Shown here one piece after another: positions 25,167 to 42,644 of a stretch of 42,832 nucleotides of DNA (within the stretch, counting starts at the first letter, position 1; each line of letters opens with the position of its first letter). The position numbers and the translations under genes are program-made. Source of the DNA: a virus; IMG/VR virus record IMGVR_UViG_3300030390_001047, positions 1 through 42,832 of that record, one strand, 5' to 3'. The notes beneath the pieces were generated by a model that ran no database searches, was not told the origin of the DNA, and saw only the letters and a program-made list of their open reading frames with translations.

Positions 25167-25850
25167 ATGGCACAAAGCGTATTAGTAATTGCAGATTCAG
25201 GTACAGGAAAGTCTACCTCAATCAGGACATTAGATCCTAAAGAGACTTTCATTATAAACATTGCAAATAAACCATTACCTTTCAAGGGCTACAAGAGTAA
25301 GTATACTCAAATTAGTAAAGATAATCCTAAAGGTAATTTAACATCAGCAGCTAGCGCTCCTGGTATTATTAAAGCAATGAATCATGTAAATGATAAAATG
25401 CCAGGTATTAAAACTCTTGTAGTTGATGACTGGCAGTATATGAGTTCTTTTGAATATTTTGATAGAGCTAATGAGAAGGGTTATGATAAGTTTACTCAGA
25501 TAGCAGCTAACCTTGCCATGGTGGCAAAGTTGCCTAAAGATCTAAGAGATGACTTAACTGTAATTTTCTTAACTCACTCAGAAGATTCAACTGATATAAA
25601 TGGAAATAGAAAAGTTAAAGCAAAAACAATTGGTAAAATGATTGACAATACATTAACTTTGGAAGGCCTATTTTCTATAGTATTATTTGGTAAAGTAAAT
25701 AAAGATGATGATGGTGAACTTGAATATGGTTTTGAAACTCAAAACAATGGAGAGAACACATGTAAATCACCAATGGGTATGTTTGAGGATAAGTTTATTC
25801 CAAATGACCTAGCGTATGTAAAAGAATGCATGCAAAAATATGAAGAGTAA
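25167..25850 (+). CDS. RecA-like / Sak4-type ATPase (227 residues)
   Basis: A short NTPase: Walker A VIADSGTGKSTSIR (about residues 7-20) and Walker B KTLVVDDWQYMSS (about 82-94), followed by LTVIFLTHSEDS with the sensor His. This layout (AAA_24 / Sak4) belongs to phage single-strand annealing or strand-exchange ATPases, and such ATPases recur in crAss-like replication modules. It starts immediately after the previous stop and precedes the SSB-like gene, a usual partner of this ATPase. Assignment is by motif only. Confidence 0.8.
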   Translation: MAQSVLVIADSGTGKSTSIRTLDPKETFIINIANKPLPFKGYKSKYTQISKDNPKGNLTSAASAPGIIKAMNHVNDKMPGIKTLVVDDWQYMSSFEYFDRANEKGYDKFTQIAANLAMVAKLPKDLRDDLTVIFLTHSEDSTDINGNRKVKAKTIGKMIDNTLTLEGLFSIVLFGKVNKDDDGELEYGFETQNNGENTCKSPMGMFEDKFIPNDLAYVKECMQKYEE

Positions 25851-25877: not shown

Positions 25878-26552
25878 ATGTTAAGTACTAAAGACATGTC
25901 TGCAGGTTCAGGCAGCACAAAACCAGTTATCGGAACAGGAAATCACCTAATTAAAATCAATTCTATTACGTTTGATCAGACACCATATGATTCTGATGCA
26001 TATAATATTATGCTTCATGTAGAGTCTGAACCAGTTACAGGAGAGTTTAATGGTTTCTTAAAAGATGTGAATAATCCTAATGGAGACCGTTATGAAGGCC
26101 AGGTAGGTAGAGTAAGATTCTCTCCATACCCATATAAAGATACTGTTTTAGATAATGGTAATGAAATCAAAAGAGATAATGAAGTATTAAAAGCTATGGT
26201 CTTTTTATCAGAAGTAGTTGGTAAAAGAAATGAGCTAGATGCTATTGAAGCAAATACAATTGAAGACTTTATGATTAAAGCAGCAAAGGTATGTTCAGAG
26301 ACTGGATATATTAGAGCATGCTTAGGTGCACGTGAATGGGAAAACAAAGAAGGTTATGTAAACAATGACTTGTTCTTACCTAAAAGAAATAGAGATGGAG
26401 CACCATTAGAAGCTAATGATCTAGAAAATAATAATATCTTAATATTTGATTCTAATAACAAACAACATTTCAGACCTTTAATTAAAAAAGATAATCCTAC
26501 TACAAATAACTTTGAACCAGCTGTAGCAAATGGAGATGATTTTGATTTGTAA
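25878..26552 (+). CDS. Single-stranded DNA-binding protein candidate (224 residues)
   Basis: The protein has an OB-like body (LIKINSITFDQTPYDSDAYN, IMLHVESEPVTGEFNGF, VGRVRFSPYPYKDTV) and an Asn-rich part (KKDNPTTNNFEPAVANG). The C-terminal tip is DDFDL, resembling the acidic SSB tip DDDIPF that recruits partners. It follows the RecA-like ATPase, which is the typical gene pair for recombination. At 224 residues it is longer than cellular SSB. A hairpin lies between it and the primase gene. Confidence 0.72.
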   Translation: MLSTKDMSAGSGSTKPVIGTGNHLIKINSITFDQTPYDSDAYNIMLHVESEPVTGEFNGFLKDVNNPNGDRYEGQVGRVRFSPYPYKDTVLDNGNEIKRDNEVLKAMVFLSEVVGKRNELDAIEANTIEDFMIKAAKVCSETGYIRACLGAREWENKEGYVNNDLFLPKRNRDGAPLEANDLENNNILIFDSNNKQHFRPLIKKDNPTTNNFEPAVANGDDFDL

Positions 26553-26600: not shown

Positions 26601-26623
26601 TGATTTACATAAATAATAAAAAG

Positions 26624-27598
26624 ATGATTAGTACTAAAAATTTAGTTCTTAGTCCATCAGATATTCCAAGTTATTGGGTATTTCAATATTATTTAAACTT
26701 ATCAGAACGCCTAACAGGCCAGGACATTAAGATTAAATCAATCTTTAATCCTTTAGAGAAGACACCAAGTTTTTGCATATACGTTGATAAAAAAATAATG
26801 CAATATAAATTTAAAGACTTTTCAACTGGTAAAAGTGGTAATAAAATTGATCTTGTCAAAATGATGTTTGACTTAGACTTTGTTAATGCATCACAAAAAA
26901 TAACTAATGACTATAATTTACATGTGAAGTCTAATGGCTTTGAAGCTCAATCCATTACAGTACAACCCAAATGGGAGGTGCAGTTTATTAAAGACACAGA
27001 GTGGACAAAGGCGGATGCTTCCTTCTGGTTAAAGTTTAATATTGGTAAGACTATGCTTAATAAGTATAACGTTAAACCAATAAAGTACTATAGCTTAGTA
27101 AAAGAAGAAAACCTTAAAGTTAAAGACTTAAAGATAGAGGGTAAACATATATATGGTTACTATAATAAAGATGGCAGTGTATATAAAATATATCAGCCAT
27201 TTAGTAAACATAAATTTCATAAAGTTTCTAAATATCTACAGGGCTATGATCAGTTGCAATACAATCAACCTTACCTAGTAATATGTTCATCTCTTAAAGA
27301 TGTGATGTGTCTTGCTAGTATAGGTTATAACATTGAGACTATAGCTCCAGATAGTGAGAACACTATGATTAAGCCACATATAATAGAATACTTTAAGAAA
27401 AAATATAAAAAGGTTATAACTTTCTTTGATAATGATGAGGCAGGAGTTAATGCTGTAGATAAATACAAAACTATGTACAACCTTGATGGTTTTGTATTAC
27501 CTATCTGTAAAGATATATCTGATGCAGTAAAAAAACACGGTGTAAATCATGTACACTCCAAACTAAAACCATTATTAAAACAAACATTAAACAAATAA
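26624..27598 (+). CDS. DNA primase, TOPRIM-type (DnaG-like, 324 residues)
   Basis: I start at ATG 26624, since the upstream TTG 26585 lies in the hairpin region. The N-terminal domain has SIFNPLEKTPSFCIYVDKK and YKFKDFSTGKSGNKIDLVKM, the pattern of the DnaG N-terminal domain but without zinc cysteines. The TOPRIM part has PYLVICSSLKDVMCLASIGY and VITFFDNDEAGVNAVDKYK (D-x-D at about 269-271). The usual first TOPRIM Glu is Ser (CSSLKD rather than xEGxxD). It makes RNA primers with the DnaB-type helicase encoded just upstream. Confidence 0.8.
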   Translation: MISTKNLVLSPSDIPSYWVFQYYLNLSERLTGQDIKIKSIFNPLEKTPSFCIYVDKKIMQYKFKDFSTGKSGNKIDLVKMMFDLDFVNASQKITNDYNLHVKSNGFEAQSITVQPKWEVQFIKDTEWTKADASFWLKFNIGKTMLNKYNVKPIKYYSLVKEENLKVKDLKIEGKHIYGYYNKDGSVYKIYQPFSKHKFHKVSKYLQGYDQLQYNQPYLVICSSLKDVMCLASIGYNIETIAPDSENTMIKPHIIEYFKKKYKKVITFFDNDEAGVNAVDKYKTMYNLDGFVLPICKDISDAVKKHGVNHVHSKLKPLLKQTLNK

Positions 27599-27599
27599 C

Positions 27600-27992
27600 A
27601 TGGGTGAAATAAAAGAAGTAATGCGTTGGTGGATTCCGGGCAATGTACCTTCAAGTAAAAACGGAAGACGTTGGACAGGTAAATACTTTATAGCTAGTAA
27701 AGCAACTATGAATTATAGAAAAGCTACGAAAGATATTTATTTAAGTTACACTAAAGAGTTTAAAGAAGCATTAAAGACACGTGATTTACCAGTAAAGATA
27801 TCTTTTGAATTTATAAGAGGCAGCCGTCATAAGTTTGATTATATAAATCCTGCACAAACTGTACAAGATGATATGGTTAAGTATGGGTGGATTGAAGATG
27901 ATAATGCTGAATTTATAATACCGGCATTTGAAAAATATAAATATGATAAAGAAAATCCAGGTGTATGGATAGAAATAGTTGATTTTGAATGA
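27600..27992 (+). CDS. rusA: RusA-family Holliday junction resolvase
   Basis: A 130-residue protein with the RusA layout: WWIPGNVPSSKNGRRW (N-terminal PSSKN), a central FEFIRGSRHKFDYIN holding the first catalytic Asp (D80), then AQTVQDDMVKYGWIEDDNAE with acidic residues (D90/D91 and D100/D101), which together bind Mg2+. RusA dimers cut four-way junctions that arise in replication and recombination. It lies one base after the primase stop and overlaps the next gene by 4 bases. Confidence 0.85.
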   Translation: MGEIKEVMRWWIPGNVPSSKNGRRWTGKYFIASKATMNYRKATKDIYLSYTKEFKEALKTRDLPVKISFEFIRGSRHKFDYINPAQTVQDDMVKYGWIEDDNAEFIIPAFEKYKYDKENPGVWIEIVDFE

Positions 27993-28318
27993 ATAAAAAA
28001 ATAATAACTTTAGATGAATTTTTTAGATTTAAAGAAATGTTCAGAGGTTCTGATGAAGATATAGAAGTAGCGTTGGCCATATGGAATTCACAATATAAAG
28101 ACAAAAAGTTGCTTGATATACTCATGTGTAAAGCACTGGTGTTTAATGATAGGGTAAAATTTTCTATTGCAGTTAAACATAAATTTACTATTAGAAAAAA
28201 TAGTCCGTCTATGCAAACACAATCTCTATATGCATTTATAGAAGCTAAAAAGTTGCATCAAGTATATGCAGACATAATTGAAACCATAAATAATAAAAAA
28301 AATGATGACAATAATTAA
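27989..28318 (+). CDS. Unknown 109-residue helical protein
   Basis: KIITLDEFFRFKEMFRGSDE then DIEVALAIWNSQYKDKKLLD and a basic middle (VKFSIAVKHKFTIRKNS). It ends TINNKKNDDNN. It overlaps the resolvase by 4 bases and the metallopeptidase/VWA gene by 17 bases. No family recognised. Confidence 0.65.
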   Translation: MNKKIITLDEFFRFKEMFRGSDEDIEVALAIWNSQYKDKKLLDILMCKALVFNDRVKFSIAVKHKFTIRKNSPSMQTQSLYAFIEAKKLHQVYADIIETINNKKNDDNN

Positions 28319-29474
28319 TGTACAAGAACTAGTAGCAAAAACTACTAAAACTTTAATCTTTACCGAGCCCTTTTATGGGCTCTTTTTGATTGGAGTAAAT
28401 AAGAAATATACAACTAATATACCCACAGCGGGTGTAAGTAAAAATAATATTGGTGTACAACTGACAATTAACCCAGAATTTTATAATGATCTAAGTCAAG
28501 ACCACAGGTTTGGTTTGATTAAACATGAAATATTACACCTTGCATTTGGACATTTACTTTTAAGAGATAAATATTCAGATCATAAGTTATTTAATATTGC
28601 TGCAGATCTAGAAATAAATCAGTATATAGCAGGAGATAAACTTCCTGATGGAGGATTGTTATTATCTAGTTTTCCTGAAATTAATCTTCCTGTAAAAGCA
28701 GGTACTAGAGTTTATTATGATATGCTTAAAGAAGCAAAGGAAGATGGTACGTCGCCAACACTTGACTCTTTAATGAGTGAAATGGATGGCACAACTCCTC
28801 ATTGTCATTCTACTTGGGATGAGTTTTCTGATATGTCTGAGTCTGATAAAAAACTAATACAAAAACAGGTTGAACATCAATTAAAAGAAGCCGCAGAACA
28901 AACAATTAAAAAACAAGGAAGTATACCAGGTGAGCTTTCTGATCTTATACACAGATTAACGCACATTGAACCACCTAAGTTTGATTGGAAAGGTTATCTA
29001 AGAAGATTTGTTGGTAATTCTTCCATAGTATATACTAAGAAGCTAAGACGTAAATATAATAAACGGTATGCAGGTAGTCCTGGCCTTAAAATTAAGTTTA
29101 AGAATCATATCCTTGTTGGTGTTGATACAAGCGGGTCTGTAAACAATGATGAGCTTAAAGAATTCTTTAGTGAATTAGCACATATGCATAAGACAGGTCA
29201 TAAAATTACAATTGCACAGTGTGATACCAGCTTGAAGAGCGTGAAAGAATTTAAACCCAAACAAGATTGGGAAATACATGGTCGTGGTGGGACATCGTTC
29301 CAACCAGTTATTGACCACTTTAATGAAAAGAAAGGAGTTTATACAGCTCTAGTATATTTAACAGATGGTGAAGCACACTCTCCTGATGACTGTCCTGCAA
29401 ATACCTTATGGGTACATAGTAGTATTAGTGACATCAATGAGGAATTACCAGGACAAAAAATTAAATTAAATTAA
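28302..29474 (+). CDS. Metallopeptidase-like plus VWA-domain protein (DUF2201-type)
   Basis: A 390-residue protein. The N-terminal half has a zinc-protease-like motif LIKHEILHLAFGH (H75-E76-x2-H79). The C-terminal half is a VWA domain: HILVGVDTSGSVNNDE (MIDAS D-x-S-x-S near 275-279), RGGTSFQPV (Thr331) and VYLTDGEAHS (Asp355). Genes of this build occur next to MoxR-type AAA ATPases, which are thought to act as chaperones on a partner; here the MoxR gene follows nine bases on. A terminator-like hairpin lies inside codons 22-29. The role in phage is unknown. Confidence 0.82.
   Translation: MMTIINVQELVAKTTKTLIFTEPFYGLFLIGVNKKYTTNIPTAGVSKNNIGVQLTINPEFYNDLSQDHRFGLIKHEILHLAFGHLLLRDKYSDHKLFNIAADLEINQYIAGDKLPDGGLLLSSFPEINLPVKAGTRVYYDMLKEAKEDGTSPTLDSLMSEMDGTTPHCHSTWDEFSDMSESDKKLIQKQVEHQLKEAAEQTIKKQGSIPGELSDLIHRLTHIEPPKFDWKGYLRRFVGNSSIVYTKKLRRKYNKRYAGSPGLKIKFKNHILVGVDTSGSVNNDELKEFFSELAHMHKTGHKITIAQCDTSLKSVKEFKPKQDWEIHGRGGTSFQPVIDHFNEKKGVYTALVYLTDGEAHSPDDCPANTLWVHSSISDINEELPGQKIKLN
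28365..28387 (+). promoter_or_regulatory. Terminator-like hairpin inside the VWA gene start
   Basis: GAGCCC pairs with GGGCTC over a 6-base loop TTTTAT and runs straight into TTTTT, within codons 22-29 of the VWA gene. It has the form of an intrinsic terminator. It could set a lower level of the downstream genes, or be tolerated coding sequence. Confidence 0.5.
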
Positions 29475-29483
29475 TAAAAGAAA

Positions 29484-30755
29484 ATGGCACAAGTAAATTT
29501 AAATGTAACAGAATTAAAAGGATTTGTAAATCACATAATTACTAACAACAGATATCTGCAAGAAGCAGGAAAAAATTCTGTATCAGTAGAAGTTGTAGGT
29601 GAATCTGGTATTGGTAAAACATCCACCATAGTAGAGCTTGCTCAAGATAATAAACTAAAGTTTGTAAAACTTAACCTTGCACAGATAGAAGAGTTGGGTG
29701 ACTTAGTAGGTTTCCCTGTACGTCAATTCCAAATGTATAAGGAAAAAACTATAGCACCTAAAATAGATGACTTATCAATGGTTACTGCATCACAAAGAGC
29801 TGCTGGTGCAAGCTTAGCTAACCTTAATAAAGGTGTAACTACTAAGAAAGTTGGTATGTGGGTTGATGAACTCGCAGTACAAGAATATCTAAAGAATGGA
29901 TACAAGATGACAGGCAAGAATAGAATGTCTTATTGCGCTCCTGAGTGGATTGCTGATGCAAAAGAAGGTGGTATCTTATTACTAGATGACTGGAACCGTG
30001 CAGATACTAGATTTATTCAAGCAGTTATGGAATTGATTGACAGACAATCCTATATCTCATGGACCTTACCAAAAGACTGGCATATAATTTTAACAGCTAA
30101 CCCGGATAACGGAGATTATATGGTTAACAGTGTAGATAGTGCACAGAAGACTAGGTATGTAACTGCAAATCTTAAGTTTGATGTTAATGTATGGGCTCAG
30201 TGGGCAGAAGGTGCAGGTATTGATACTAGATGTATTAACTTCTTACTACTTCATCCAGAATTAGTGACACAAGAAACAAATGCAAGATCTATTACTACGT
30301 TCTTTAATGCAATATCAAGCTTTGAATCATTTGAAGATAATCTAAGTATGATTCAGATGATTGGTGAAGGTAGTGTTGGTGATTCATTTGCTTCTATGTT
30401 TACAACGTTTATTAATAATAAACTAGATAAGCTTGTTACACCTAAAGATCTGTTGACACATGATAATGAAACATATATTCTTGGTGAGCTTAGAGGTTGT
30501 GTTGGTAAAGATGATGCTTATCGTGCAGATATAGCTGCAACATTAGCAACAAGGCTTGGTAATTATGCTGTTGTATATTCTAAGGAAAATACAATTAATC
30601 AGAAAATTACTGATAGACTTAAAGCTTTGTGTACTATGGATTATTTTACCAATGATCTACAGTATTTAATAATACGTACAATCTTTAATGGAAATAAGAA
30701 AAAGTTTAATAAATTAATGATGATCCCTGAGATTGTTAAGATGACAATGAAATAA
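29484..30755 (+). CDS. MoxR-type AAA+ ATPase
   Basis: A 423-residue protein: Walker A VEVVGESGIGKTSTIV (about 35-50), Walker B EGGILLLDDWNRAD (about 161-174) and sensor 1 HIILTANPDNGDY (about 200-212), matching MoxR/dynein-type AAA+ ATPases. MoxR proteins pair with VWA proteins and act on large assemblies or metal-centre maturation. It lies between the metallopeptidase/VWA gene and two unknown paralogues, forming an apparent four-gene unit. The role of this unit in phage infection is unknown. Confidence 0.87.
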   Translation: MAQVNLNVTELKGFVNHIITNNRYLQEAGKNSVSVEVVGESGIGKTSTIVELAQDNKLKFVKLNLAQIEELGDLVGFPVRQFQMYKEKTIAPKIDDLSMVTASQRAAGASLANLNKGVTTKKVGMWVDELAVQEYLKNGYKMTGKNRMSYCAPEWIADAKEGGILLLDDWNRADTRFIQAVMELIDRQSYISWTLPKDWHIILTANPDNGDYMVNSVDSAQKTRYVTANLKFDVNVWAQWAEGAGIDTRCINFLLLHPELVTQETNARSITTFFNAISSFESFEDNLSMIQMIGEGSVGDSFASMFTTFINNKLDKLVTPKDLLTHDNETYILGELRGCVGKDDAYRADIAATLATRLGNYAVVYSKENTINQKITDRLKALCTMDYFTNDLQYLIIRTIFNGNKKKFNKLMMIPEIVKMTMK

Positions 30756-30756
30756 T

Positions 30757-31797
30757 ATGGCAAACAAATCAGTATATCAAAATCTTGATGCTGATGCTTT
30801 AACTCATTTTGGACTAGAGCAGGACACTATTTACGGTGTTCTGTCTGGTTCATATGAGATAAATAAAGTATTATGCACTGAAGATCAAACAACATATGAA
30901 AAAATACAACGTATATTAACGGTCCCTACAGAAGATGACCAAACTTTTAGAACCAAAAAGAAAGCTTTTATATTACCTAAGTGTAGTGTATCACAAGATA
31001 GATTAAAAGCAGCCCTCAAAGAGCATAGTATAACTGTAACTAATGATTATGAATTAGCAGATTTAATTGTAGGTCATACAGATATATTTCCATATAGTAA
31101 GTTATCTAATGGAGAGAATATCCCTAGTACTATCATGATGTCAAAATTATGGAACTATGAAACTACTTTAGGCCGTCAATCTGCAATACAACCAGCTGAA
31201 ATATCAATTTATAATTCAGGTTTGGAAGTTATAGTAACTGCTAAGCTTACTGATAAAGTAAGATACTATGATTTAGATATAAAAGACAATATTTATGACT
31301 CTTGGTTGCTAACAGGAATGGCGATTAATCTTGCACATATAATTGATACTACTGATGTAAGTGTAATTGATCCTGAAACAGTATTGCATAGTTCAGCTAA
31401 TAAGATTATCTTAGATGAACAATTACTATCAGATCTTAAAATACAAATTGGATCATATGGTGATGATAAAGCTTTAGCAGTTAAAATACTTCCTACTATT
31501 TGTTATAAGACAAACTATCATTTACTATGGCAGCTTGCTCGAGACTGTGGTGAAATTACATATGCAGACAATAGAGATAAAGATCTACAGTACTGGATTA
31601 AAGAATCAAGGTTTCAAGCTTTAGGAAGAAAAAGCGCTGAAGATATGATAATGTGGTTAGAAAGAGAAGAAAAACTGTGTAAAACAACATTCAGATATCT
31701 AGAACCTATTGTAAGAAGAGAGATTAGTATACAAAACAGAAATCTTTATACATTTAAAGTAGCTGTAAAAAAAGAATATCAACAGTATTTAAAATAA
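30757..31797 (+). CDS. Unknown protein A of a paralogous pair (346 residues)
   Basis: Residues 71-110 read FILPKCSVSQDRLKAALKEH and SITVTNDYELADLIVGHTDI, which align without gaps with the same residues of the next gene (see below). A second region, LSDLKIQIGSYGDDKALAVK, followed by CYKTNYHLLWQLARDCGE, also has a counterpart there. The C-terminus is basic (VRREISIQNRNLYTFKVAVK). It starts two bases after the MoxR stop. No catalytic motif is visible; it is likely part of the MoxR/VWA unit. Confidence 0.72.
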   Translation: MANKSVYQNLDADALTHFGLEQDTIYGVLSGSYEINKVLCTEDQTTYEKIQRILTVPTEDDQTFRTKKKAFILPKCSVSQDRLKAALKEHSITVTNDYELADLIVGHTDIFPYSKLSNGENIPSTIMMSKLWNYETTLGRQSAIQPAEISIYNSGLEVIVTAKLTDKVRYYDLDIKDNIYDSWLLTGMAINLAHIIDTTDVSVIDPETVLHSSANKIILDEQLLSDLKIQIGSYGDDKALAVKILPTICYKTNYHLLWQLARDCGEITYADNRDKDLQYWIKESRFQALGRKSAEDMIMWLEREEKLCKTTFRYLEPIVRREISIQNRNLYTFKVAVKKEYQQYLK

Positions 31798-31801
31798 AAA
31801 T

Positions 31802-32977
31802 ATGCATAAACAATATAACATTACAATAAGCAGTAATGACCCAACGAGTTGGACAGATAATAAATTAAATAAAAGCTCCTTTAATCTAAGAGAAGTAGGT
31901 ATCTTTTTATATAATACAAATAATTATACATTTACAGAAGAAGATGCTAGGGAACTAGGTCTAGGCAGTAATTTAAATGGGAGACCTTTTAATTTAGAGG
32001 ATAAAACATTATACAGATATCCTAAACTAGCTTTACCTAGACAAAAAATGGATTTATTAAAAGATTCATATAATATAAGCATTACAAGAAATCCAGATAA
32101 AGCTGATATACACGTTATTTCTGCAAAGTTTGTGCAAAGTCTTATAGATTTTGAATGGAAAGCTTCTTTGTCAAAAAGACAGTTGTATAATGTGTTAGTC
32201 AAGATGAGAGAAGAAGATCTTTTACATGATGATTTATTAGATACCTTACGTATAACTTTGGAAAATACTTCTGAAAGTGATTATTTTAAAATTGAGACTA
32301 AATATAATTATGGTAGCTCTCATAGTAATAGTGCTAATGCAGACGTTATAAGTAAAATAATTAGTGAGAATAAATCTCTAAAACATAGATCAGGTATAAT
32401 TAAAGGTTCTAAGAACATTGATATGTATAATAAGCTTACAGCAACCAGTGCTTTAATTGTATTAGATAATGATATAATAAATAAAGTAAGTGAAGGATTG
32501 AGTATAATTACTAAAGATGATTATGAATCATTACAACAACAGCTTCTTAGTGATGATATAGAAACTAGAACTCTGGCTATGGAGTTAATGTCAAATTGTA
32601 ATTTTGAAGAATCTTTTGATATTTTAGCTTTACTTTTTTATTTCAATTTTGACTGGTGTAAACATACAACTAACTGGACTACTGTAAATGTTAGAACTTT
32701 TAGAAATAGATTTGAAGGAATAAGTGGAGGCTGTCATAAAAATAATGGTCATTCGTATAGCAGGTTAATCCGGTATCTAAAGGAACAGGATAAGCTTACA
32801 ACATTTGCTGTTGAAATATGTAAGAATAACATTTGTAATGATGTACTAAAATCTGCAGGTATAAATTACAGTGATGATTCTTTCAACGTAAATGTAGATG
32901 ATATATATATCAACGATAGTTTTAAAGATTATATTAAAGAATCAAACATAATTAAAAAAGAATGTATAAAAATATAA
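31802..32977 (+). CDS. Unknown protein B of a paralogous pair (391 residues)
   Basis: Residues 74-106 (PKLALPRQKMDLLKDSYNIS then ITRNPDKADIHVI) match protein A at the same positions: P-K, L-K, I-x-[VI]-T and A-D are shared. Further on, LLSDDIETRTLAMELMSNCN then ESFDILALLFYF resembles the second shared region, a helical repeat. A Cys/His-rich insert (ISGGCHKNNGHSYSR) is specific to B. It overlaps the nuclease gene by 16 bases. Function unknown. Confidence 0.72.
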   Translation: MHKQYNITISSNDPTSWTDNKLNKSSFNLREVGIFLYNTNNYTFTEEDARELGLGSNLNGRPFNLEDKTLYRYPKLALPRQKMDLLKDSYNISITRNPDKADIHVISAKFVQSLIDFEWKASLSKRQLYNVLVKMREEDLLHDDLLDTLRITLENTSESDYFKIETKYNYGSSHSNSANADVISKIISENKSLKHRSGIIKGSKNIDMYNKLTATSALIVLDNDIINKVSEGLSIITKDDYESLQQQLLSDDIETRTLAMELMSNCNFEESFDILALLFYFNFDWCKHTTNWTTVNVRTFRNRFEGISGGCHKNNGHSYSRLIRYLKEQDKLTTFAVEICKNNICNDVLKSAGINYSDDSFNVNVDDIYINDSFKDYIKESNIIKKECIKI

Positions 32978-33951
32978 AGAAAGAAGAGGAATTCTATGCT
33001 AAAAAAGATTTTTGCTTTAGTTATTCCTCTCTAAATAAATTACTATTTACACCCTCCTTATTCTATAAGGACTATATATTAAATGATCGTGAGGTTAGAA
33101 CAGATAAGCACTTAATTGAAGGTAAAGCAATACATTGTCTATTGTTTGAGCCAGAAGAGTTTGCTAATAAGTTTAATGTTGTGCCTGGCAAGCTACCAAG
33201 TGATAATGTAAGAAAGGTTTTAAAGGATATGCGTTCAAATACTAACACCAAAAAGTTAGATCTAGTACAGCCCTTTTGTATATTGGATTCTTTAAAAACT
33301 TTAAATTTATATCAATCTCTAAAGACAGACGATTCTAGAGTACTGAAGATAAAAACAGTTGAAAATGAACCTTATTGGGATTTCTTATCTAAGCCTGATG
33401 TAGATGTTTTAGATTCAGACACTTACTTAAAGTGTAAAGAACGTGTTGATATTCTCAAAGAAAACAAAGATGTTATGTCTTTATTTGATGAACAGACAAC
33501 TGACTTTGATCTAGATCCTATAGAAACTCACAGCGAGAAGTATTTAAAGGCTAATTTGGTAGATTGTAAATTTGGTTTACATGGTTATATAGATTATTAT
33601 AAAATAGACAATGATAAAAAGGAAGTTGTTATATGTGATCTTAAGACAACCGGCAAGACTGTAAGTGATTTTAGAGAAACGGTTGACTTTTATAACTATT
33701 GGTTACAAGCCGCTATATATATGAAACTTGCTTATGAATCATTAGGTGATAATAAAGATGAATATAAAATAATGTTTAAGTTTATTGTTATAGATAAATA
33801 TGATCAGGTGTATGTTTTTGATGTGAGTGATCAAAGTATAAATGACTGGGCTGATGGATTAGGTGGTGTTATTAATACTGCTAAGTTTCATTACAATAGT
33901 AAAAACTACTCATTACCTATGGATTTGTTAGTAAATAAAATTAAATTATAG
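32962..33951 (+). CDS. PD-(D/E)XK exonuclease (RecB/Cas4-like, 329 residues)
   Basis: FSYSSLNKLLFTPSLFYKDY (residues 19-38) leads to IEGKAIHCLLFEPEEF (52-67, GxAIHxLLF), as in phage exonucleases with the RecB/RecE nuclease fold. The active site is LHGYIDYYKIDNDKKEVVIC (Asp212) then DLKTTGKT (Asp227-x-Lys229), with LQAAIYMKLA (Q250-x3-Y254). A 5'-3' resection role beside the RecA-like ATPase and SSB would make a recombination system. It overlaps gene B by 16 bases and is followed one base later by the next gene. Confidence 0.82.
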   Translation: MYKNIKKEEEFYAKKDFCFSYSSLNKLLFTPSLFYKDYILNDREVRTDKHLIEGKAIHCLLFEPEEFANKFNVVPGKLPSDNVRKVLKDMRSNTNTKKLDLVQPFCILDSLKTLNLYQSLKTDDSRVLKIKTVENEPYWDFLSKPDVDVLDSDTYLKCKERVDILKENKDVMSLFDEQTTDFDLDPIETHSEKYLKANLVDCKFGLHGYIDYYKIDNDKKEVVICDLKTTGKTVSDFRETVDFYNYWLQAAIYMKLAYESLGDNKDEYKIMFKFIVIDKYDQVYVFDVSDQSINDWADGLGGVINTAKFHYNSKNYSLPMDLLVNKIKL

Positions 33952-35033: not shown

Positions 35034-35168
35034 ATGACAATAAAAGAAATGCAAGAGAACACGATGGATAAAGCTCTGATTAAATTTGACACTGTAGAAA
35101 AAGCAGCTAGAGCTTTAGGAATAACCACAAGAACTCTATTTGCATATAAATCTAGAAGAAAAGAATGA
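35034..35168 (+). CDS. Small Fis-type helix-turn-helix peptide (44 residues)
   Basis: MTIKEMQENTMDKALIKFDT then VEKAARALGITTRTLFAYKS and RRKE. The part AARALGITTRTLFAYKSR is a Fis/HTH_8-like turn (AAxxLGIxxxTLxxxxxR). It is preceded by the terminator and overlaps the polymerase start by 4 bases (ATGA), so it may regulate or be translationally coupled to the polymerase. The peptide is short but has a convincing motif. Confidence 0.7.
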   Translation: MTIKEMQENTMDKALIKFDTVEKAARALGITTRTLFAYKSRRKE

Positions 35169-37156
35169 AGCATTGGGTAATGGATTATGAGACTTTATAT
35201 GATTGTTTCACCGGGGTATTTGAAAATTATAAAACTACAGAGACAAAAATCTTTGTGGTTGCCCGTATGAGAAATGATTTAGTAGAGTTTATAGAATTCT
35301 TAAATCAAAACATAAATAATAAAGAGTGGCACATATCCTATAATGGATTAGCATTTGATGCACAGGTCACTCACTATATATTAGATAATGAAAAAGATTG
35401 GAGAGTTCTAGATGGTCATGAAATAGCACACATAATCTATCAATATGCTCAACGTTGTATTCAGAAGTCTAACAATAAAGAGTTTAGTGATTATCCTCAA
35501 TGGAAGATGAAGATTGGACAAATAGATGTATTTAAGATGCATCATTGGGACAACCCGGCTAAGCGTTCTAGTCTTAAGTGGATACAGTATAGTATGGACT
35601 GGCAAAACATTCTTGATATGCCTATACACCATGAAACTAAGATAGCTACAGATAAAGATCTGGATACTATATTAGAATATTGTATAAATGATGTTAGATC
35701 TACTAAAGAAATATATAATAGATCTAAGTCTCAGATAGGATTAAGAAAAGAACTTACTAAGACATATGGTATAAATCTGTTTAGCGCTTCAGAACCAAGG
35801 ATTAGTAAAGAAATCTTTGGGTACTTTTTAAGGAATATGTTAAATATACCTAAAAGAGATTTGAAGGCCATGAGAACACATAGAGATAGTGTAAAGGTAA
35901 AAGATATAATTTTACCATACATTTCTTTTACTTCTCCAGAGTTTAACATGTTACTTGATAGGTTTAAATCTTTAGAAGTAAAAGGAGATAAACTTAAAGG
36001 TAGTTTTAAATATGGTGTAAACTATAAAAATGTTAAAACACATTTTGGTTTAGGTGGTGTTCACGGTGCTACTAAGAAAGGTGTATATGAAAGCACTGAA
36101 GACATGGTAATCATGTCATCAGATGTTACTAGTTATTATCCTAATCTTGCTATAAAGAACAAGTGGTCTCCAGGACACTTCCCTAAAGAAGAGTTTTGTA
36201 ATCAATATGAGTGGTTCTTTGAAGAGCGTAAGAAGATACCTAAGAGCAATCCAATGAATTATGTATATAAGATTATACTTAACTCAACCTTTGGCCTTAG
36301 CAATGATGATAAGAGTTTCTTCTATGATCCTGAGCTATGTATGAGGATTACAATTAATGGTCAATTATCCTTAATGATGCTATATGAGCAGATAATGGAA
36401 AGAATTCCGGGATCTATAGCGCTAATACACAATACAGATGGTGTAGAAACGTTAATACCTAGAGAGTTTATTGATGATTATATGGGCATATGTAAACAAT
36501 GGGAAGAGAAGACCAATCTTAATTTAGAACATGATGAATATCAAAAGCTTATCTTAGGTGATGTTAACAATTATATTGGTGTGAATAACTACATAGATGT
36601 TGACATTACTAAATGGAGAGAAGTTAAACAAAGTCAGCCTCACTATCTGTTTAAGGTGGATAATGACAAGTTTAGCTTCGCTCCTGTTAAGCTTAAGGGA
36701 CGCTTTGATTTTCATGAATTACAATTACATAAAAATAAATCTAAGTTGGTGATACCCAAGGCTATATATGAATACTTTGTAAATAATATATTACCAGAAG
36801 ATTACCTGGAACAAAACAAAAATATATTGGATTATTGTATTGGTGGAAAGTCTAAAGGTGATTGGCAGCAAGTATCTAAAACAATCAAGCAGGGAGAATA
36901 TGAAGAAGTAAAGCTGCAAAAGATTAATAGATACTATATCTCTAATAATGGAGTAAAGATTGTAAAGGTTAACAAGAATGATAACCGTGAAATACAATTA
37001 GAAGCCGGTAGATGGGTGCAAACACTTTTTAATGATATGAAAGTTGAACCTAAATGGGAAAACTATGATATTAATAAAACATACTATCTACAAGCAATAG
37101 AGACAGAAATCAATAACATCTTGACTGTATCTACAAATCAACTTAAATTATTTTAA
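35165..37156 (+). CDS. DNA polymerase, family B (compact, with exonuclease domain)
   Basis: A 663-residue polymerase. The 3'-5' exonuclease motifs are VMDYETLYD (D7/E9), SYNGLAFDAQV (D65) and EYCINDVRST (D176). The polymerase motifs are MSSDVTSYYPN (motif A, D320), YKIILNSTFGLSN (motif B, 368-380) and IHNTDGVETL (motif C, 421-430). In motif C the usual D-T-D is N-T-D, so the first Asp is replaced while the essential second Asp is kept. It is much shorter than cellular family B enzymes. It is expected to replicate the phage genome with the helicase, primase and SSB. Confidence 0.87.
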   Translation: MKHWVMDYETLYDCFTGVFENYKTTETKIFVVARMRNDLVEFIEFLNQNINNKEWHISYNGLAFDAQVTHYILDNEKDWRVLDGHEIAHIIYQYAQRCIQKSNNKEFSDYPQWKMKIGQIDVFKMHHWDNPAKRSSLKWIQYSMDWQNILDMPIHHETKIATDKDLDTILEYCINDVRSTKEIYNRSKSQIGLRKELTKTYGINLFSASEPRISKEIFGYFLRNMLNIPKRDLKAMRTHRDSVKVKDIILPYISFTSPEFNMLLDRFKSLEVKGDKLKGSFKYGVNYKNVKTHFGLGGVHGATKKGVYESTEDMVIMSSDVTSYYPNLAIKNKWSPGHFPKEEFCNQYEWFFEERKKIPKSNPMNYVYKIILNSTFGLSNDDKSFFYDPELCMRITINGQLSLMMLYEQIMERIPGSIALIHNTDGVETLIPREFIDDYMGICKQWEEKTNLNLEHDEYQKLILGDVNNYIGVNNYIDVDITKWREVKQSQPHYLFKVDNDKFSFAPVKLKGRFDFHELQLHKNKSKLVIPKAIYEYFVNNILPEDYLEQNKNILDYCIGGKSKGDWQQVSKTIKQGEYEEVKLQKINRYYISNNGVKIVKVNKNDNREIQLEAGRWVQTLFNDMKVEPKWENYDINKTYYLQAIETEINNILTVSTNQLKLF

Positions 37157-39200: not shown

Positions 39201-42200
39201 TTATTTGTACATGGTAATTGCTATTGTATAATTTAAGCTTGATCCATTTATAATAACTGCATCTTTATCAATTACATCTAATAGAAATTGGGTTGTGCTA
39301 GCTCCTCTTGTTCTACATTGAAGCATTTTTACACCTGCATTATCAAAAACACTTGCTTGAATTAAATAATTTGCATTGCTTCTTGTTGCATTTAATGTTA
39401 TTGTATAAAGACCTGTTCCTGAATTATATGCCACAAGATTGTTTCCTGCAAAAACAGATTGTCCTTGATTAACAATACCAGAACTATCAAAAGAGAAATA
39501 ATCAGTTGGTCCTGGATCAGATATAACTAAGTGTTTAACTTGAGTATATTTAACAGTATTATTATCATCTACATCTTGATATATTATTAAATCAGCACCG
39601 TCAGGAATAGCCCCAGATGCATTTGTTGCTGATTGAATAATAGAATCCGTTCCTATATAGTCAACTGCAATCTCATCTGCACTAGTTAATAATCCTGCTC
39701 CGCCTGTAACATTTAAAGTTATTGCTCCAGTTGGTCCACCTACTGATGAACAACCTGTTCCTGCAGTTAAGCTTGTTACTACTGGTAATGCACTAATAGC
39801 AGTTTTTTTAACAGAATTACCATCACTAGCATCATTAAACAACATAATATCAGTTGCATCTGCTGTACCTGCTCCTGGAACTAACATTATATTAGATCCT
39901 CCAGTATAATTTACTCCTATTGTAGGATTAACTGTGGTTGATCCTGCTTCTAATTCTAAACCTTCTCCTGGTGTAACAGATGTAACTGTACCAACTGTTG
40001 GTGCTGTACCTTGTACAATAGCTGTTATGTGTCCTGAACCATTAAATGTTATAGATGATGGATTTGTTACAGTAGCTGCTGTAATAGAATCAGTGTGATT
40101 TATTGTTAAAGTATCTGTTGCTGATACAGCAGTTGTTAAACCTGTACCACCAGCAAAAAGAACCGTGTTTAAATTTAAAATATCTTGAGCACTACCACCA
40201 TCACCATTTAATGTCCATTTCTGATAGTAACCTGGTAAATTATTTATAGTTGCTTTTTTAACTGTATTATCTGAAATATCACTGAACATGATATAATCAG
40301 TTGGACTTAGATTTACTTCGGTTGTTCTAACGTTTATTATATTATCAGTACCTACCGTATCTATAGAAAGAGTAACTGTATCTGTTGCACTTACTACACT
40401 AGTAATTCCTCCTGATCCTGCCCCAGATCCTGCTAATACACTTAATGTATTACCTAAATTAATAGTTTGTTGTGTTGTTCCATCAGTAAGAGTAAAGCTA
40501 CCTTGATTTAGAAGTTTTGCTACCGTATCTTTCTTTATGTTTCCACTATCACTAGTATCACTATACCATATAAAGTCTGGACCTGCAACGTCTGCAGATG
40601 GTGCTTCTAATATAGCATTGTCTGAACCTAAATAATCAATTCCAACAATAGGACTGCTTGCAGTACCTGTTACTGTAATACCTAATCCTTCGTTTACAGT
40701 AGTACTACCACCTCCACCAGCTGGAACTTGCCATGTGCCATCTGCTCTTAAGAAAGCAGTTGATTGATTTGATCCTGATGAAGAAGGAACATATCCTACT
40801 AAGTTATTACCTCCAAATTTATTGGAGTTTATTGTAAGTGTTGTTCCTGAAACACTTCCTGTTAAAGGAACAGTTGCTCCTGTTATTAATGCAAAAGCTA
40901 CAGCAGTAACTCCCGTTGAAGGTGTTATCCATTGTCCATCGCCTCTATAAAAAGTTGTAGCACTTGGAGTACCTCCAGCATTTACAAGAGCTATTGTCAT
41001 ATCACCAGCACTTACTGCTGAGTCAGTTGCTATACCTGCTCCTCCTGAAGTAACAAGTCCTGCAAATTTTAAAGTCGTTCCTGAAGTTACATTTATGTCT
41101 GTACCCTGATCAGAATCTGCTGTCCATGATGTATACTGATCAAAAGGTAAAGCAGATATTGCTGCTTTTCTTACAGTATTACTATCACTGATATCTGAAA
41201 ATACAATAATATCAGATGCTACTGGTGTTGCAGCGTTCCAAACTTGTACAAAGTTATCTGTTCCTACAGTATCTAAATTAAATGTTAATGTATTAGGATT
41301 AGCACTTACTGCAGCTGCATCTAATCCAGGACCTCCAATAAAGTTTATTGTTTCACCGTTACTTATATTGACTGATGAACCGCCATCTCCTTGAATATTA
41401 AAAGATGACATGCTTCCACCACCACTAGCTGGAAGAGTTACTGTTTTAACATTTAAAGCAGTAGGATGTCCTGTAGCATCTTGTGTTACACTATCTATTA
41501 CTGTGAATGTAGCTCCTGCTGCAGGGGATACTGCAGAGGTTGTATCAGTTCTTGTAGTATTAAGATGACTAAATGTTATTTTCTCTGGGTTACCTCCTGC
41601 TACAGTTAGTGTAGTTGCTATTTTTGCACCTCCTAGAAATTGAACTACTTCTCCATCAGTTACTGTACCTGTTATGGTGCCATCATTAAGTTTCCAAGTA
41701 TAAGAACTACCATTAGCTCCCCAAAGGACTTGACTGCTACCATCAGATATTAATACCTGACCAGCTGTTCCAAGATTCCCTCCTGCATCTTTTACAGGAC
41801 CATTAATATATAATATAGCGTCTGTTATTACAGTTTGGGTATCTGCAGTACCTATTGTTAATACGCCTGCTCCCCCTGGAGTTTGTATCATAGGGACAAT
41901 AGATCCATTACCTATTGTATTAGTTCCAGTCCACATTGTCATATGATTTGCAGTACCAGTTCCTGTTACCACATTTTGTGAAGCAAGTGTTTGATAAGAT
42001 ATAGTTGTACCATTACTTACTAATATAGTACCTGCTGCTCCTATACATAGTTGAGATTGCAAGTTTGAAGCATCACCAACCCAAATACAACCTTGATTTA
42101 AAGTTACTACTGGATCATCGTTAGACCACACAACTCTACCATCTGCTAAAGATCTTAATATTCTATTAGCTCCACCTGCTTCTGCACCGGCAGAATCAAG

Positions 42201-42644
42201 AACTCTGTTAAGTAGTGATGTACCATTTACAACATCTCCTGCTGTACCTAATACAACTTTTGTTTTTAATACAGCATCCTGTTCAACAATTAAACCACCA
42301 TTAATATTAATTGAAGTAAGACCAGCAGCAGTAGATTGGCTTGCAATACTATCTTCTATAGAAGTATTCTGAGTTACACATGATCCTGATACCGGGGCAT
42401 ACATAGGAAGAGTCTTTACTGTAGCTGTACCATTTTGTAGAACAACATCAGTGAGTATATCACATTTAAGATCACCAAACTTGATAACAAAAGGCTCCAT
42501 CTTAGGTGCATAACTTGTCCCAGTATTAAGAGTACCGGAAGAGTATAGTCTACCAAACTCAAAATGATCCTTTTGACCATCTAACTTTAATTTCTTTTTA
42601 TTTCTGTTTAATAGTCCTAAGACTTCTTGTATATAAACACTCAT
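39201..42644 (-). CDS. Large repetitive tail-fibre/receptor-binding-like protein
   Basis: A 1147-residue, Gly/Ser/Thr/Asn-rich, beta-type protein without hydrophobic helices. A short block of type D-[IF]-I-x-[FY]-x-D-x-[SD]-D-x-x-x-[VI]-[KR]-K/Y occurs about five times (near residues 478-500, 690-712, 783-804, 932-954 and 1018-1039), spaced 90-210 residues apart. In between are stretches like GTLTITGTVTDGEVVQFLGG-type beta helices. The C-terminus (FLLDVIDKDAVIINGSSLNY) resembles the fibre-tip domain of Bacteroidota phages. It would bind the host surface. The repeats suggest duplication, with possible variation in host range. The fibre role is inferred. Confidence 0.72.
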   Translation of the reverse strand: MSVYIQEVLGLLNRNKKKLKLDGQKDHFEFGRLYSSGTLNTGTSYAPKMEPFVIKFGDLKCDILTDVVLQNGTATVKTLPMYAPVSGSCVTQNTSIEDSIASQSTAAGLTSININGGLIVEQDAVLKTKVVLGTAGDVVNGTSLLNRVLDSAGAEAGGANRILRSLADGRVVWSNDDPVVTLNQGCIWVGDASNLQSQLCIGAAGTILVSNGTTISYQTLASQNVVTGTGTANHMTMWTGTNTIGNGSIVPMIQTPGGAGVLTIGTADTQTVITDAILYINGPVKDAGGNLGTAGQVLISDGSSQVLWGANGSSYTWKLNDGTITGTVTDGEVVQFLGGAKIATTLTVAGGNPEKITFSHLNTTRTDTTSAVSPAAGATFTVIDSVTQDATGHPTALNVKTVTLPASGGGSMSSFNIQGDGGSSVNISNGETINFIGGPGLDAAAVSANPNTLTFNLDTVGTDNFVQVWNAATPVASDIIVFSDISDSNTVRKAAISALPFDQYTSWTADSDQGTDINVTSGTTLKFAGLVTSGGAGIATDSAVSAGDMTIALVNAGGTPSATTFYRGDGQWITPSTGVTAVAFALITGATVPLTGSVSGTTLTINSNKFGGNNLVGYVPSSSGSNQSTAFLRADGTWQVPAGGGGSTTVNEGLGITVTGTASSPIVGIDYLGSDNAILEAPSADVAGPDFIWYSDTSDSGNIKKDTVAKLLNQGSFTLTDGTTQQTINLGNTLSVLAGSGAGSGGITSVVSATDTVTLSIDTVGTDNIINVRTTEVNLSPTDYIMFSDISDNTVKKATINNLPGYYQKWTLNGDGGSAQDILNLNTVLFAGGTGLTTAVSATDTLTINHTDSITAATVTNPSSITFNGSGHITAIVQGTAPTVGTVTSVTPGEGLELEAGSTTVNPTIGVNYTGGSNIMLVPGAGTADATDIMLFNDASDGNSVKKTAISALPVVTSLTAGTGCSSVGGPTGAITLNVTGGAGLLTSADEIAVDYIGTDSIIQSATNASGAIPDGADLIIYQDVDDNNTVKYTQVKHLVISDPGPTDYFSFDSSGIVNQGQSVFAGNNLVAYNSGTGLYTITLNATRSNANYLIQASVFDNAGVKMLQCRTRGASTTQFLLDVIDKDAVIINGSSLNYTIAITMYK

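Follow-up and report, generated by a model that had tools for sequence, protein, structure and literature searches.

A conserved MoxR and metallopeptidase-VWA cassette linked to two distantly related proteins in the replication operon of a marine crAss-like phage

Gene content of the locus

A 42.8 kb virus record (IMG/VR record IMGVR_UViG_3300030390_001047, positions 1 to 42,832; the whole stretch is called the window) was analysed. We focused on four consecutive genes, which coded for a metallopeptidase-VWA protein (VWA), a MoxR-type AAA+ ATPase (MoxR) and two proteins of unnamed families, here called uA and uB. A preliminary description, made from the letters alone, had read 28302-32977 as a compact run in the replication block of a phage and had named the first two products. 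These readings were borne out. All four open frames were found on one strand at the coordinates below, with gaps of 9, 1 and 4 bases. The phage origin followed from a crAss-like portal and terminase, and replication genes flanked the cassette.

28302..29474, plus strand: metallopeptidase-VWA protein, 390 amino acids, DUF2201_N and DUF2201, homologue of N4 gp25 (PF13203, PF09967, phrog_1314, BLASTP)
28524..28538, plus strand: HEILH (HExxH) zinc-peptidase motif, VWA residues 75-79 (sequence)
29124..29138, plus strand: MIDAS motif DTSGS, VWA residues 275-279 (sequence)
29484..30755, plus strand: MoxR-type AAA+ ATPase, 423 amino acids, homologue of N4 gp24 (phrog_1297, E=3e-36; family hidden Markov model (HMM); Midasin match in PDB)
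29598..29621, plus strand: Walker A motif GESGIGKT, MoxR residues 39-46 (sequence)
29976..30002, plus strand: Walker B motif LLLDDWNRA, MoxR residues 165-173 (sequence)
30757..31797, plus strand: uA, 346 amino acids, unnamed family, conserved C-terminal end (AlphaFold2, Foldseek, VIA, alignments)
31802..32977, plus strand: uB, 391 amino acids, distant and fast-evolving paralogue of uA (bridging copy in relative L173, AlphaFold2, identities)

VWA was placed in the DUF2201 metallopeptidase-VWA family. It passed both Pfam cut-offs (PF13203, 70.3 bits against 23.2; PF09967, 60.8 bits against 26.4) and carried the HExxH and MIDAS DxSxS motifs. Of 140 distinct VWA-family frames, 139 had HExxH, and DTSGS or DTSAS was found in 137 by a first-match search. 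VWA matched phrog_1314 with E=3e-66 and N4 gp25 with E=3e-19 in BLASTP, and homologues were detected by tblastn in 420 named phage records. phrog_1314 and many phage records carry an HNH endonuclease label for this protein. An HNH nuclease domain was not detected in VWA, for which Pfam gave PF13203 and PF09967 only, and members of phrog_1314 match metallopeptidase-VWA models. The label looks wrong and is likely to be a spreading misannotation.

In the case of MoxR, Walker A and Walker B were both present, and they were kept in 133 and 129 of 139 distinct frames, respectively. The family HMM matched N4 gp24 (E=2e-6). Sequence matches among solved structures in PDB were to Midasin AAA modules only (E=6e-8), and Pfam AAA_5 scored slightly under its cut-off (E=1e-3). 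These results were consistent with the MoxR/Midasin group. In almost every relative, Walker B read DD where DE is usual.

Linkage of the four genes

A gene-neighbourhood survey was performed, as the preliminary description had advised. Loci were fetched by VWA alone (n=80). All four complete genes were found in the order VWA-MoxR-uA-uB in 51 of them, which was every untruncated locus (51/51). The remaining 29 left the contig before the set was completed, and a member was lacking in none. When all loci were taken together, the gene order was constant and no member was missing. The loci holding all four genes contained 117 distinct uA proteins, and a single base separated MoxR from uA in 105 of 121 loci. 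All relatives with sufficient sequence showed the same order as well, and their uB proteins were only 21-46% identical to that of the window. Because the order persisted at such divergence, chance linkage was excluded. The relatives were mainly IMG/VR contigs of up to 120 kb, and the sampling was biased towards relatives of the window. Two further contigs with the cassette had been binned in bacterial metagenome-assembled genomes, and these look like phage contigs.

The genes of the block differed in rate. The median identity to the window was 89% for MoxR, 80% for DNA polymerase, 78% for VWA, 74% for uA, 46% for a 109-residue protein encoded upstream of VWA and 31% for uB. Within the block, conservation was thus highest for MoxR and lowest for uB.

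Relationship and structural models of uA and uB

The two proteins had been described as adjacent paralogues. Searches of Pfam, PHROG, NCBIfam and PADLOC gave no family for uA or uB, apart from a single PHROG at E=0.08. There was no usable tblastn match for either protein in named phages, nor for uA in plasmids. BLASTP was blind to a relationship between the two (E=0.5), and hhalign gave no more than a hint (P 6e-4 to 1e-3, Prob 19-30%). The bridging evidence came from L173, a relative with three tandem uA/uB members. Its middle protein (L173:6968-7987, 339 amino acids) was intermediate and matched both profiles in a colinear manner, scoring 30 bits with the uA HMM and 106 bits with that of uB. 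In a second genome, a uB-type profile cross-matched uA with E=0.002. A motif, Y/F-x-x-P...R/K...T-x-x-x...AD, was common to uA and uB. Based on the bridging copy, the cross-match and the structural matches shared by the two models, we regard uA and uB as real but distant paralogues.

AlphaFold2 gave good models, with pLDDT 89.8 and pTM 0.81 for uA and pLDDT 86.3 and pTM 0.68 for uB. The following regions were delimited.

30946..31404, plus strand: BRCT-like module of uA, residues 64-216, interrupted by a long insertion (Foldseek, VIA)
31405..31629, plus strand: helical (ARM/HEAT/annexin-like) region of uA, residues 217-291 (VIA Z 2.2-3.8, weak)
31991..32500, plus strand: BRCT-like module of uB, residues 64-233, with insertion (VIA)
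32510..32737, plus strand: ARM/HEAT-like helical region of uB, residues 237-312 (VIA Z 6.8 to an AP-3 subunit, 6.2 to beta-catenin)

Foldseek aligned uA with the BRCT domain of PARP-1 (prob 0.84 and 0.80, 40-51 columns), and VIA aligned it with BRCT domains at Z up to 4.5. For uB, VIA gave Z 7.2 with the PARP BRCT domain 2le0 over 78 residues at 3.0 Å, and the list consisted mostly of BRCT domains. The VIA rows named no other fold for uA or uB, which does not exclude another fold. The beta-alpha-beta-beta core of BRCT domains such as those of PARP-1, XRCC1 and BRCA1 superposed on both models; uA and uB differed from them in a long insertion ahead of the last elements and in having no match at the sequence level. 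The models suggested that a BRCT-like module, broken by an insertion, precedes an ARM/HEAT-like helical region in each protein, and they pointed to protein-binding folds.

Both models shared their top four matches in BFVD (E 3e-6 to 3e-11, prob 1.00), with modest TM-scores of 0.3-0.5. These were A0A8S5QMV2 from crAss-like ctYsL76, A0A8S5TL70 and A0A8S5TKB2 from Podoviridae ctz6O13, and A0A6J5LXR8. Beyond these four unannotated proteins, neither model matched any in BFVD with E<0.001. Podoviridae ctz6O13 has two such proteins, like the uA/uB pair.

Replication operon of the phage

The window was assigned, from its genes, to a marine crAss-like phage. The portal matched phrog_6547 (E=1e-89) and the terminase phrog_6681 (E=5e-61), tblastn matches of the portal were mostly to crAss-like phages, and crAss-like head proteins were present, consistent with Crassvirales. 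The portal, terminase and head genes lay on the minus strand, and the replication operon lay on the plus strand. The operon included a DnaB-type helicase, and two unknown proteins were encoded between its exonuclease and its DNA polymerase. The other genes around the cassette were as follows.

25167..25850, plus strand: Sak4-like single-stranded DNA annealing protein (phrog_2872, E=8e-62; BLASTP to N4 gp44, E=5e-6)
25878..26552, plus strand: candidate phage single-stranded DNA-binding protein (SSB), adjoining sak4 (relatives retain its acidic tail -DDFDL)
26621..27598, plus strand: DNA primase (PF01807 and PF13155 above cut-off; phrog_12622, E=6e-21)
27600..27992, plus strand: RusA-like Holliday junction resolvase (phrog_1682, E=7e-21)
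27989..28318, plus strand: small unknown protein, 109 amino acids, usually upstream of VWA (linkage patterns)
32962..33951, plus strand: PD-(D/E)XK exonuclease of exonuclease VIII type (PF12705, 28.9 bits; phrog_412, E=1.5e-19)
35165..37156, plus strand: DNA polymerase (phrog_1252, E=2e-129)

Elsewhere in the window, a protein of 1147 amino acids (39201-42644, minus strand) had no PHROG or Pfam match.

C-terminal tails of uB and the SSB question

The C-terminal tails of uB fell into several types. Several deep branches ended in -DDLPF, the uB of the window shared KKECIxI with a related clade, and the remaining tails were short and acidic. Such clade-specific tails (KKECIxI, DDLPF, -I(N/D)E) were alike while the rest of the protein diverged, and they may be swappable docking peptides. 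Ends of the form [DEN][ILVM]PF were found in 13 of 127 distinct uB proteins and in 1 of the other distinct frames, which numbered about 6,140; the Fisher p value of 7e-22 was post hoc, since the tip was spotted before counting, and related sequences are not independent. The sole frame other than uB was the annotated SSB of csAssE-Sib. With a slightly wider tail pattern, uB was the sole match among about 300 frames in each of two near-whole relatives (G005, G012); a third (G009) gave no match.

The acidic-hydrophobic -DLPF end of a deep uB subclade resembled the tips of SSB proteins, namely DDDIPF in E. coli, NDYPPF in HK620 and EEEDLPF in csAssE-Sib. In the case of HK620, the NDYPPF tail of the phage SSB is needed for loading and stimulation of Sak4 (PMC5928155). 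The operon of the window also encodes Sak4. However, uB was modelled as BRCT/ARM-like, unlike the OB-fold of SSB, and the window's uB lacked the acidic -DDxPF tip. It had no Pfam match and no OB-fold was seen, although a missing match does not exclude one.

The candidate SSB beside sak4 had the tail -DDFDL, or one closely similar to it, in almost every lineage of the tail survey. It matched no family model and did not align with N4 gp45. A search with PF00436 found no SSB in 13 relatives, a result of little weight because the same run also missed the annotated SSB of csAssE-Sib. The latter protein was not found in relatives. A literature search for phage proteins combining BRCT with an SSB tip found nothing.

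Known relatives of the MoxR-VWA pair

Cellular MoxR-VWA systems such as RavA-ViaA, CbbQ-CbbO and NorQ-NorD combine an AAA+ ATPase with a MIDAS/VWA protein, the same logic as in the window. Unlike these systems, VWA of the window carried a fused metallopeptidase-like domain and the pair was linked to two additional proteins, with no close sequence match. Midasin also had the AAA+ plus MIDAS/VWA logic in common with the window pair.

In phages, the pair was already known, so that the preliminary suggestion of an undescribed phage use did not stand; uA, uB and their link to the pair are new. gp24 and gp25 of N4 are core genes of N4-like phages with unknown function, and in N4 they belong to the middle transcripts (PMC4193335). 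Together with their Schitoviridae orthologues, they were adjacent homologues of MoxR and VWA of the window. They lay in the early/middle half of N4 among the same kinds of replication gene, including the Sak4-like gp44, in the order MoxR then VWA, which is the reverse of that in the window. A MoxR and metallopeptidase-vWA pair has also been published for group 2.2 jumbo phages, for which virion assembly was proposed; its described domain architecture is like that of the window, and no uA or uB was described (PMC7824862).

Searches for VWA in Lbo-JY46, csAssE-Sib and five reference crAss-like genomes were negative, and the uA and uB profiles gave no match in the same genomes. A literature search for crAss-like phages together with MoxR found nothing. 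Anti-phage defence models of PADLOC gave weak matches only, the best being DolB for MoxR (E=0.003).

Possible function of the cassette

Based on the above results, we infer that the four proteins act jointly, with uA and uB as adaptors and a target in replication or recombination. A predicted MoxR AAA+ ring, driven by ATP and with the metallopeptidase-VWA protein as co-factor, would remodel, and perhaps clip, complexes in phage DNA replication or recombination. The paralogous adaptors uA and uB would bring this machine to its clients, contacting them via the BRCT-like module, the ARM/HEAT-like helical region and the short C-terminal tail. We consider the chances of a single replication- or recombination-associated remodelling machine with paired adaptors to be about evenly balanced. 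The preliminary description had left the target as a replication or host complex and had offered the two proteins as possible adaptors. The adaptor role was supported as a possibility, and a replication role was favoured because of the location in the operon, where Sak4, the candidate SSB, primase, RusA, the exonuclease and DNA polymerase flank the cassette, and the SSB-like tips on some uB. The conserved MoxR (89%) and the variable uB (31%) fit a common motor with variable adaptors.

Several observations weigh against this proposal. Position in the operon alone is no proof of a replication role. The uA and uB profiles had no match in the records of N4, other Schitoviridae (the N4 proteins and three other records), PBS1, S-TIM66, phiFa and MTATph1, and the pair thus seems to work there without detectable uA or uB. 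The likeness to BRCT and ARM was seen in structure only, with Z values under the range that VIA calls clear, and Pfam BRCT did not match uA, uB or divergent members at E<=1. The tail count was post hoc, the uB of the window ends in KKECIKI (window 32954-32974) and not DDLPF, and the tip was absent from most uB.

Other functions were weighed against these data. The pair might act as a virion-assembly chaperone that matures or clips a structural protein, with uA and uB as assembly adaptors or clients. Assembly was the role proposed for the jumbo phage pair, with a MoxR-vWA precedent in Acidianus two-tailed virus (PMC7824862). Homologues of gp24/gp25 lie near a second structural module in the N4-like phage RPP1 (PMC4193335), and the S-TIM66 pair is near annotated structural genes. 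In the window, however, the cassette is part of the replication operon, whereas the portal and terminase are encoded on the other strand, and SSB-type tips are ill-suited to a structural adaptor. We hold this role to be unlikely. Host takeover or counter-defence, in which MoxR-VWA would dismantle a host complex picked by a fast-evolving uB, appeared quite improbable. It would accord with uB being the fastest-evolving protein of the block and with tails that switch type among clades. Relaxed constraint can also give fast evolution, there was no convincing match to defence-related families, and the strict presence across the lineage was unlike typical accessory counter-defence genes. It is a little more doubtful still that uA and uB are replication proteins themselves, for example scaffolds associated with single-stranded DNA, and have no more than the operon in common with MoxR-VWA. 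Such proteins would accord with the SSB-type tips found in part of the uB family, and contact between the adaptors and MoxR is putative. However, a separate candidate SSB with a conserved -DDFDL tail stands beside sak4, the gap between MoxR and uA is almost always 1 base and the four genes never separate.

Within the preferred reading of a replication-associated remodelling machine, a more specific form is conceivable, which we put forward tentatively as possible but rather less than probable. The four components might work at the replication fork, where a MoxR-metallopeptidase-VWA motor would be steered by paralogous BRCT/ARM-like adaptors. One adaptor would borrow an SSB tip in some lineages and dock to replication or repair proteins that bind SSB. 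If true, this would be the first concrete lead on the role of N4 gp24/gp25. MoxR-VWA pairs belong to the core gene set of N4-like phages, with unknown function (PMC4193335), and also occur in crAss-like and jumbo phages. The constant presence of uA and uB beside the pair in the present lineage supplies natural candidates for its partners, through which its role could be tested. For a predicted adaptor other than an SSB, carrying an SSB-type tip would be an unusual entry to the SSB interaction network.

Interruptions of coding frames in relatives

The coding frame of MoxR was interrupted shortly after Walker B in several relatives (L173, L179, L178, L335, L263). The interruption in L173 (L173:4124-5133) was a group I intron (79.9 bits) with a GIY-YIG/NUMOD1 frame. 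Introns commonly insert at the catalytic codons of highly conserved genes. Rfam detected no intron in the interruptions of L179, L058, L294, L263, L335 and L161; in L058, a short gap or an error may be the cause. In L161, about 1 kb (L161:3227-4293) broke the VWA gene near the HExxH codons, with no Rfam match. In three single contigs (L186, L114, L016), the frames of uA, VWA or polymerase were in pieces, as frameshifts or sequencing errors.

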